A stretch of DNA of 64,000 nucleotides from a virus: positions 62,001 through 126,000 of the IMG/VR virus record IMGVR_UViG_3300043411_001575; one strand, 5' to 3'. Shown in pieces: positions 1 to 54,572 of this stretch. Position 1 is the first letter of the stretch, and every line of letters starts with the position of its first letter. Made by a program: the position numbers and the translations under genes. The notes beneath the pieces were generated by a model, which saw only the letters and a list, made by a program, of their open reading frames with translations, was not told the origin of the DNA and ran no database searches.

Positions 1-109
1 CAGGTCAAGGCTCGAAGCCCCTTTTTCTCACTGACACTCACAGGTAACTCATTCTAATCAATTCAGAAAATTCTGAATGATATTTTAATATTTCAAAGAA
101 CTAAAAACG

Positions 110-183
110 TCCCGACAGCAAGATTTGAACTTGCGACACTTTGGATATGAACCAAATGCTCTACCGAACTGAGCTATGTCGGA
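110..183 (-). tRNA. tRNA-Met (anticodon CAU)
   Basis: Read on the minus strand, the cloverleaf is complete: acceptor TCCGACA pairs with TGTCGGG, the D arm is GCTC/GAGC, the anticodon stem is TTTGG/CCAAA around loop TTCATAT, and the T arm is GCAAG-TTCAAAT-CTTGC. The anticodon is CAU, so elongator Met is the default. A lysidine-modified Ile tRNA cannot be excluded by eye. No CCA is encoded. Confidence 0.93.
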
Positions 184-246
184 ATATAAGATTCCTTGCT
201 GCAAGTCCCCGCACTATATCTGCTTTTATGGGGAGGAATCTTTTTG

Positions 247-318
247 AGCCGTGAGAAGGAATCGAACCCTCGTGCGTAGATTACAAATCTACTGCTTTAC
301 CAACTAAGCTATTACGGC
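247..318 (-). tRNA. tRNA-Thr (anticodon UGU)
   Basis: The minus-strand cloverleaf has acceptor GCCGTAA/TCACGGC with one mismatch, anticodon stem GTAGA/TCTAC with loop TTTGTAA (anticodon UGU), and a T arm with TTCGATT. Its 5' end touches the stop codon of the HNH gene. The 63-nt gap to tRNA-Met contains an inverted repeat (AGATTCCT/AGGAATCT) that may guide processing of a shared precursor. Confidence 0.93.
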
Positions 319-2713: not shown

Positions 2714-2717
2714 GCAT

Positions 2718-2725
2718 CAAATATA
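2718..2725 (-). promoter_or_regulatory. -7 box very close to the hydrolase start
   Basis: Minus-strand TATATTTG ends only 4 nt before the ATG of the hydrolase gene. If it is used, the mRNA would be almost leaderless. Confidence 0.4.
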
Positions 2726-2733
2726 AACAAAAA

Positions 2734-2766
2734 ACCTGAAACAATTAAGCTTCAGGTTTCTTTTGA
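2734..2766 (-). terminator. Terminator after tmRNA
   Basis: Minus-strand AACCTGAAGC ... GTTTCAGGTT followed by TTTTTTG forms a stem of about 8-10 bp with a T tail. It lies just after the tmRNA body. Confidence 0.75.
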
Positions 2767-2986
2767 ACCTCTTTCGAGGGCTGAGAATGTTCCCCACTAG
2801 GGAAGATTAAGCAGCTAATTTTACTTCGCCATTTAAGACTTGTGAGTTTCTAATTTAGTTTTCCTTACGCTGTCAAAACCGTGCGCACCCATGTGTAATA
2901 CTCATCATTGGTGGAAGCGGAGAGATTCGAACTCTCGTCCAAACATAACTATTAAAAAATTTCATGTATAAATACAAACGAAACTC
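2767..2986 (-). ncRNA. ssrA: tmRNA, circularly permuted (two-piece type)
   Basis: Transfer-messenger RNA rescues stalled ribosomes. Along the minus strand, the acceptor half comes first: P2 strand GAGTTTC, then GGAC and a T arm (GAGAG-TTCGAAT-CTCTC), acceptor CGCTTCC, A and encoded CCA (2909-2911). An 18-nt spacer follows. Next comes the 5' half (GGGTGCG from 2890, GGTTTTGACAG), P2 strand GAAACTC complementary to GAGTTTC, AGUC, and the tag ORF at 2836-2807. The tag reads LNGEVKLAA and ends TAA. GGGTGCG pairs with CGCTTCC at six of seven positions. This order is the permuted arrangement, which normally matures to two RNA pieces. Confidence 0.88.
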
Positions 2987-2990
2987 GATG

Positions 2991-2998
2991 CAAATATA
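2991..2998 (-). promoter_or_regulatory. tmRNA promoter -7 box
   Basis: Minus-strand TATATTTG lies 4 nt before the first P2 strand of the tmRNA. The precursor would therefore begin with the acceptor half, which supports the permuted reading. Confidence 0.65.
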
Positions 2999-3021
2999 CA
3001 AAATTATTTGATTAGTAAAAA

Positions 3022-42750: not shown

Positions 42751-43545
42751 ATGAGTAATAAAATAGATTTAGATAAATATTATACACCATTGGATAAAGC
42801 TAAATATTGTATTGACAAGGTGTATGAAATTATCGGAGAGAATAATATAAGCGAAGCTATTGAACCAAGCGCAGGTAACGGTAGTTTTAGCTTACAAGTG
42901 CCGACTACTTGTTGGGCTTATGATATTGAACCTGAACACGAAAGTATTATAAAGCAAGATTTCTTGACGTTGGATGTTGATTATCTTTATGGTAGGTTAA
43001 TAATTGGAAACCCACCATTCGGCAGTAGAATGAATTTAGCACAAAAATTTTTCAAAAAAAGTATTGAATTAGGTGACTATGTTGCATTTATATTACCAAT
43101 TAGTCAATTGTGGAATACTAACAGTTTATTTGAATTTGATTTGATTCATAGTGAAGATTTAGGTAAAGTAAAATATAGTGATAGAGATTTACATTGTTGC
43201 TTTAACATTTATAAAAGACCTGAAATTGGATTGAATAACAGACCAAAAAACAAACTAAACTCTGTTAGTATAACAAGACAGGATAGCAAAGGATATGATA
43301 CTATCAATGATTTTGATATAAGAATGTGTTATTGGGGAAATGGGAGTGCTGGAAAAATACTAAAAGAAGGTGAAACTTATAGTGCGGAATACAAGATAAA
43401 AGTAAATGATGAATTTAGAAAAGACGTAATAGATGTTCTTTCTAATATTAATTGGTTTGATGAACTGAATTGTATTGCTATGTTAAAAATTCAACAATTT
43501 CACATAATCAATGTACTGAAAAAGTATGTGCCAAACATTGATTAA
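42751..43545 (+). CDS. DNA adenine methyltransferase, gamma class (NPPF)
   Basis: KYYTPLDKAKYCIDK and IEPSAGNGSFSLQ (AdoMet motif I, near residue 40) precede GNPPFGSRMNLAQKFF (motif IV, near residue 90). This is the order and motif set of gamma-class N6-adenine enzymes related to TaqI-type proteins. 264 aa, with a C-terminal part for target recognition. Confidence 0.88.
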   Translation: MSNKIDLDKYYTPLDKAKYCIDKVYEIIGENNISEAIEPSAGNGSFSLQVPTTCWAYDIEPEHESIIKQDFLTLDVDYLYGRLIIGNPPFGSRMNLAQKFFKKSIELGDYVAFILPISQLWNTNSLFEFDLIHSEDLGKVKYSDRDLHCCFNIYKRPEIGLNNRPKNKLNSVSITRQDSKGYDTINDFDIRMCYWGNGSAGKILKEGETYSAEYKIKVNDEFRKDVIDVLSNINWFDELNCIAMLKIQQFHIINVLKKYVPNID

Positions 43546-53661: not shown

Positions 53662-53702
53662 TTTAATGGAATGGAGTGTCAAAATCAATTAGTTACATAA
53701 TA

Positions 53703-54572
53703 ATGGAAGATAAAATTAACAAATTAAGGAGGGAGTTATCCATAAGGAAATATGCTCCTAATACAGTTGAAACATATTGTTCATGTCTTAAAGTTATTTT
53801 TAGTAAATGTGGAATTAATCCAAGTATTGATTCTTTAAAGTCATATTTATTAACTATTGAAAATAGAAACTACCATAAACAAATAGTCGCTACATTCAGA
53901 AACTACTCTGAATTTGTATTAGGTATTAAATTATCTTTAAACGATGTTCCTTATCCTAGAAAACAAGAAAGTTTGCCTGAAATATATTCAGTTGAAGAGG
54001 TTTCTAAATTAATTAATATTCCTAAAAATTTAAAACATCAATCTATAATTTTTTTATTGTATGGATGTGGACTTAGAGTTAGTGAATTAATTAATTTAAA
54101 ATTAACTGATATAGATAGTGATAGAATGGTTGTTAACATCCGAAAAGCAAAAGGAAATAAGGACAGGCAAATAATGTTGGATGAATCTTTACTTAAATTA
54201 CTTCGTGATTATTACACTGAATATAAACCAATAAATTATTTATTCAATGGTCAAAAAAAAGACCAATATAGTGACAGGTCTGTAAATGAACTTCTTAAAT
54301 ATTGGTCTAAAAAAGCAGGTATAAAAAAACATATTCATGCTCATTTATTAAGGCATTCATTCGCTACCCATCTTTTAGATGCAGGAATAGACATGGCTAT
54401 AATTCAAAAGTTATTAGGTCATTCAAACATAAAAACAACGCAAATTTATGCAAAAATTTCAACCAAATTAATATCTCAAATTAAATCTCCATTATCAAAC
54501 ATTAAAATCAATTCAAATGAAAAATCTAGTAATATTATTCCTTTGTGGAATTCTGATAGGTTTCCAAACTAA
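53703..54572 (+). CDS. Tyrosine recombinase (Xer/integrase type)
   Basis: 289 aa. The N-terminal SAM-like core-binding domain is followed by the catalytic domain. Residues visible: R125 (GCGLRVSEL), K150 (AKGNKDR), H214 and R217 (HAHLLRHSF), H240 (LGHSN) and nucleophile Y249 (TTQIY). It ends ISQIKSPLSNI, like IntI and Bacteroidota integrases. The extra helix segment that marks IntI before the HxxR motif is missing. ATG 53703 is chosen over GTG 53676. It is the obvious candidate to act on the array. Confidence 0.92.
   Translation: MEDKINKLRRELSIRKYAPNTVETYCSCLKVIFSKCGINPSIDSLKSYLLTIENRNYHKQIVATFRNYSEFVLGIKLSLNDVPYPRKQESLPEIYSVEEVSKLINIPKNLKHQSIIFLLYGCGLRVSELINLKLTDIDSDRMVVNIRKAKGNKDRQIMLDESLLKLLRDYYTEYKPINYLFNGQKKDQYSDRSVNELLKYWSKKAGIKKHIHAHLLRHSFATHLLDAGIDMAIIQKLLGHSNIKTTQIYAKISTKLISQIKSPLSNIKINSNEKSSNIIPLWNSDRFPN

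Follow-up and report, generated by a model that had tools for sequence, protein, structure and literature searches.

A circularly permuted tmRNA gene of Bacteroidota type in a phage, read as a fourth lineage of two-piece tmRNA

Two-piece tmRNAs are known from alpha-, beta- and cyanobacterial lineages and from mitochondria (PMC3985003, PMC11915505), and that they arose more than once remains a puzzle (PMC3978253, PMC3985003). In phages, they have been tied mainly to marine phages, with 53 among 133 phage tmRNA structures (PMC9004378). The two-piece tmRNA of Melnitz and other marine phages is phage-borne and permuted like the gene described here, but it is of the alphaproteobacterial type and was reported to be under glutamine riboswitch control (PMC9004378). 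More generally, the known permuted tmRNAs of Alphaproteobacteria, Betaproteobacteria, Cyanobacteria and their phages (RF04321, RF01849-51) have the same order of parts as our gene, an intervening sequence, a tRNA-like domain and a tag in the coding piece. They carry GGUUUCGAC and a 4-nt spacer, however, whereas our gene has GGUUUUGAC, a spacer that is mostly 3 nt in its type, GUUUGGAC, a Gly resume codon, and a beta_tmRNA score below the cut-off. Standard Bacteroidota ssrA (RF00023; tag GENNYALAA), on the other hand, shares GGUUUUGACAGCG, the 3-nt spacer, GUUUGGACGAGAGUUCGA and a tag of the form GGC GAA...LAA with our gene, which differs in being permuted and much shorter, in encoding its CCA and in its tag, GEVKLAA.

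A tmRNA is also present in Cellulophaga phage Calle (MT732432), a phage of flavobacteria that likewise has many tRNAs and an RtcB. It has GGUUUUGAC as in our gene, but is in standard order and scores 86.6 bits with RF00023. This standard tmRNA (Calle_1; L051 19951-20310) lies about 50 nt off the deposited annotation (43002-43361), and the tag that ARAGORN gives for it looks implausible. We found no report of a Bacteroidota-type permuted tmRNA in the literature; some of the 79 phage entries in PMC11915505 may already be of this type. Based on its sequence, we read the gene as a member of a fourth, phage-carried lineage of two-piece tmRNA that was previously unreported.

The permuted gene and its parts

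The gene was found in a stretch of 64,000 nucleotides (hereafter the window), positions 62001-126000 of a virus record of 169,658 bases. ARAGORN called a permuted tmRNA (tmRNA*) at window 2716-3002 on the minus strand, and the Rfam model RF04321 (tmRNA_permuted) matched window 2807-2961 on the same strand with 51.9 bits against a gathering score of 47 (E = 2.8e-7, whole window versus 4227 families). The locus is a circularly permuted tmRNA gene, at the place where the original prediction had put one. On the minus strand, the parts follow each other as P2 strand, T-arm, acceptor 3' strand, A, CCA, intervening sequence, acceptor 5' strand, GGUUUUGACAG, P2 strand and tag, so that the acceptor/T-arm half is upstream of the coding half, and an 18-nt spacer (2908-2891) joins the two, as had been predicted. 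The features are as follows:

2991-2998, minus strand: TATATTTG, directly upstream of the P2 strand, similar to TAnnTTTG, the -7 element of Bacteroidota promoters; a putative promoter element, from sequence
2980-2986, minus strand: GAGUUUC, acceptor-piece strand of P2, whose complement is GAAACUC (sequence; the homologous helix covaries in relatives)
2920-2940, minus strand: GGAC and T-arm (GAGAG UUCGAAU CUCUC), from the cmscan alignment to RF04321, with 5/5 T-stem pairs
2909-2919, minus strand: acceptor 3' strand CGCUUCC (2919-2913), discriminator A and encoded CCA (2911-2909), from the RF04321 match and sequence; G3:U70
2891-2908, minus strand: 18-nt intervening sequence AUGAUGAGUAUUACACAU, predicted to be removed
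2870-2890, minus strand: acceptor 5' strand GGGUGCG (2890-2884), 3-nt spacer CAC and GGUUUUGACAG, D-loop-like and of Bacteroidota type
2844-2869, minus strand: P2 strand of the coding piece, including GAAACUC at 2850-2844 (sequence; homology with relatives)
2807-2830, minus strand: tag frame GGC GAA GUA AAA UUA GCU GCU UAA = GEVKLAA* (ARAGORN; Bacteroidota tags begin alike)
2765-2806, minus strand: structured 3' part with hairpins UUCCC-UAGU-GGGGAA and CCUC-GAAA-GAGG, read from sequence
2729-2759, minus strand: intrinsic terminator AAACCUGAA...UUUCAGGUUUUUU, from sequence and fold

The pairing of GGGTGCG with CGCTTCC, which the original prediction took as the acceptor stem, holds for six of the seven pairs and fails at 4:69, where there is a U-U mismatch. 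The stem carries G3:U70, the identity element for Ala, and the T-stem is fully paired (5/5). The complementary P2 strands GAGTTTC and GAAACTC are likewise present as had been noted. Taken by itself, the P2 duplex of the window gene has an unremarkable energy, with 220 of 1000 shuffles as low, and for this reason it rests on homology and on the two complementary strands of 7 nt. As for the tag, the reading LNGEVKLAA can be kept in its GEVKLAA part, which ends in a hydrophobic AA, but not in its start, since LNG lies upstream of GGC, the resume codon according to ARAGORN, which is also where most Bacteroidota genes start their tags.

A standard tmRNA over the cut-off was absent from the 169.7-kb virus record, in which the best RF00023 match reached 23.8 bits (cut-off 47); a better-fitting one-piece gene elsewhere, the alternative against which the permuted reading had been set, therefore did not turn up. 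For the clade-specific models RF01849-51, the best match to the window gene was beta_tmRNA with 35.9 bits against a cut-off of 84, this being the only one listed, with none for alpha or cyano, from a tool that suppresses weaker overlaps of the same clan. With 51.9 bits for RF04321 as against 65-82 in seven viral relatives, a U-U mismatch and a P2 energy within the range of shuffles, the window gene ranks with the most divergent ones.

Relatives in phages and in Bacteroidota genomes

Searching IMG/VR for the permuted order together with Bacteroidota signatures yielded 7 contigs, and then 15 and 34 more, of up to 303 kb. In total 58 loci were parsed, the window gene and that of the crAss-like phage cr114_1 included, and almost all of them have 7/7 acceptor and 5/5 T-stem pairs. 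One locus (L298) was left out of the count because it is probably of alpha type, with the tag ANDELYALAA and a 4-nt spacer, and 51 distinct sequences remain, including that of the window. All 51 have G3:U70, 42 have the 3-nt spacer, and an encoded CCA is missing in most of the permuted relatives. A tag of the form xKVIxLFxxPxRLAA / IAPLRAVA, unlike the host tag GENNYALAA, recurs in many unrelated-looking phage tmRNAs (L275-L307).

The tmRNA of cr114_1 (NC_055897.1; L002 2943-3385) is, like the window gene, both permuted and of Bacteroidota type, and is annotated merely as SsrA. It differs in its tag, GNFYVTDYTRIAA, and in its intervening sequence of about 156 nt, which holds an intact tRNA-His gene. 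We considered whether this call might be a false positive caused by the overlapping tRNA-His, and this was ruled out, as covariance model and sequence place the tRNA inside the intervening sequence. A RAGATH-9 RNA is found near this gene. Gut and environmental phages carry ribosome-rescue RNAs that go unnoticed, or whose annotation omits the permutation.

Structural constraint was assessed in five of the related genes from phages (L174, L176, L177, L187 and L190), with a 29-pair model comprising three P2 helices, the T-stem and the acceptor stem. In the alignment 99.3% of cells were paired and 12 pairs had changed on both sides; none of 500 shuffles reached that pairing, and slid versions were about half paired. 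This covariation lends strong support to a P2 helix in the five relatives. Could the window gene still be a chance match, or a misread tRNA-like sequence? It is true that permuted calls by ARAGORN can be false. Yet the independent covariance model score over the cut-off, the covariation, and about 57 homologous loci with the same order, whose acceptor and T stems are fully paired in nearly every case, effectively refute such a reading.

None of 395 sampled Bacteroidia genomes passed with RF04321 or with two DNA patterns. A standard tmRNA that exceeds the cut-off occurs in 55 of 60 Bacteroidia genomes. Of the weak RF04321 matches in Bacteroidia genomes, three were read and proved to be standard tmRNAs, or else a tRNA next to such a gene. 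A permuted pattern with encoded TCCACCA gave nothing in GTDB, a pattern that is too strict, because most relatives lack an encoded CCA. One of 396 genomes of the order passed, namely the Flavobacteriales genome G550, whose permuted gene is near a phage-type DNA polymerase, a helicase, a primase and an integrase, in a prophage-like region. Elsewhere the genome carries a standard ssrA as well, which scores 160.3 bits. The permuted gene is not among the parsed loci, since the parser did not cover GGTTTTGACTG and an intervening sequence of that greater length. The tag of this gene (L206 13945-14342) is GKVIQMNNAPVRLAA, similar to the tag GKVINLSQAPVRLAA of L189, as read by eye.

Bacteroidota characters and the origin of the permutation

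The characters that the window gene has in common with the Bacteroidota type are GGUUUUGACAGCG, a spacer of 3 nt that follows the acceptor strand, GUUUGGAC ahead of the T-arm, and Gly-Glu as the start of the tag. A search for the string GGGG-N4-6-TGGTTTTGACAGCG in 84,980 species genomes gave at least 119 loci, with Bacteroidota in the title of nearly every one. ARAGORN found 71 tmRNAs in 80 of these loci, all in standard order, with tags mostly of the form GE..LAA (e.g. GENNYALAA), and the standard Bacteroidota genes share with the phage gene, besides GGUUUUGACAGCG, a spacer mostly of 3 nt, GUUUGGACGAGAGUUCGA and a tag start of GGC GAA. In a sample independent of the search string, 18 of 21 parsed Bacteroidia genes have GGTTTTGAC, and the spacer is mostly 3 nt, sometimes 4. 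In these sequences, GGUUUUGAC and the 3-nt spacer are typical of Bacteroidota, but not absolute.

Permuted genes of the other lineages look different. All 38 parsed viral examples have GGTTTCGAC, although the main search did not fix that base. GGUUUCGAC with a 4-nt spacer occurs in all the viral alpha-, beta- and cyano-type examples that were read, but not in the window gene. Furthermore, GTTT before GGAC is present in 60 of 62 standard Bacteroidota genes and in 35 of the 51 phage Bacteroidota-type sequences, as opposed to none of 24 other permuted ones. It should be noted that GTTT and the 3-nt spacer are characters outside the selection of the search patterns. By its sequence characters, the window gene is of Bacteroidota type and differs from the three known permuted lineages.

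The tree of the tRNA-like domain (71 columns) places the window sequence among standard genes of Flavobacteriaceae, with starred support. On the same 71 columns, AU tests did not reject a single origin of all permuted tmRNAs, nor a grouping of the window gene with the known permuted lineages, which had the best, though not significantly better, likelihood in the last comparison. The gene may then have been gained from an alpha, beta or cyano lineage, which are common in marine phages, and have drifted towards Bacteroidota sequence later on. Besides this likelihood, the identical order of parts and the recognition of the window gene by RF04321, a model built from those three lineages, would fit such a history. 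It would, however, require dozens of phages to converge on the U in GGUUUUGAC, the 3-nt spacer, GUUUGGAC and the Gly resume codon, the first three of which are all missing from the 38 viral genes of known lineages, and it leaves the best clade-specific model, beta_tmRNA, far under its cut-off. We therefore regard a known-lineage origin as unlikely.

Because the AU tests leave both alternatives standing, it is the discrete characters, and a distribution limited to phages, that make the case for an independent permutation. On these grounds, we consider it quite probable that the window holds a phage-borne tmRNA gene which derives from a one-piece Bacteroidota ssrA, was permuted independently of the three known lineages and in effect represents a fourth lineage, spread among phages. 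With somewhat less confidence, we favor the broader view that Bacteroidota phages harbor an independently arisen fourth lineage which the chromosomes of Bacteroidota essentially lack, and that the permutation therefore arose, or was fixed, inside phages. The phage set may include more than one such event, and the permuted form may be selected there, e.g. as a way past factors of the host or of defence that target the one-piece ssrA. Such a lineage suggests a viral route for the movement of permuted tmRNA. Moreover, its occurrence beside the one-piece genes of the hosts and of a related flavobacterial phage makes it possible to ask directly at what point, and for what reason, a tmRNA splits.

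The phage and the proposed function

The record has 24 tRNA genes that cover all 20 amino acids and adjoin the tmRNA (record 44.9-64.3 kb; window 109-318), and CCA is encoded in about one of these 24, as against its presence in the tmRNA of the same record. Its RtcB is closest to that of Tenacibaculum phage PTm5 (67.6%) and of the Cellulophaga phages phi38:1 and Calle. The host is most likely a member of the Bacteroidota, in line with the original prediction, an assignment that rests on this RtcB similarity to flavobacterial phages. SmpB was looked for in the phage record and not found, so that the SmpB of the host would be needed.

If it behaves like the two-piece tmRNAs already known (PMC3985003, PMC3978253), the permuted gene would be transcribed into one precursor, after which RNase P would cut before G2890 and tRNA 3'-processing would trim after CCA, so that the 18-nt spacer is lost. 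The two pieces, acceptor and coding, would be held together by the acceptor stem and P2, charged by the AlaRS of the host, and delivered to stalled ribosomes by host SmpB and EF-Tu. Translation would then resume at GGC and add A-GEVKLAA, marking the product for degradation by host proteases such as ClpXP. For the phage, this could keep ribosomes free during infection, alongside its 24 tRNAs and RtcB.

A degenerate tmRNA that is transcribed but does not work in rescue, or an SmpB-titrating decoy, a role proposed for the DS6A fragment, might also account for the U-U mismatch in the acceptor stem, the short 3' domain and a phage without SmpB; the tRNA-like fragment of phage DS6A does inhibit host tmRNA (PMC11915505, PMC4131195). 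Such a role is hard to reconcile with the intact tag frame ending in LAA, the encoded CCA, G3:U70 and the terminator of the window gene, and with the structural constraint and compensatory changes in its relatives, and we deem it very unlikely.

The ORF downstream of the tmRNA (2045-2713) has no relatives in viral_contigs. Elsewhere in the same phage, about 18 DNA-methyltransferase-like ORFs are encoded on the plus strand at window 15818-53643, many of which have a near-identical N-terminus (ITEQPFCQTRVSGSTFVNADCFDVFPFIEDKSIDAII) and divergent C-terminal halves, and a tyrosine recombinase-like ORF is located at window 53676-54572.
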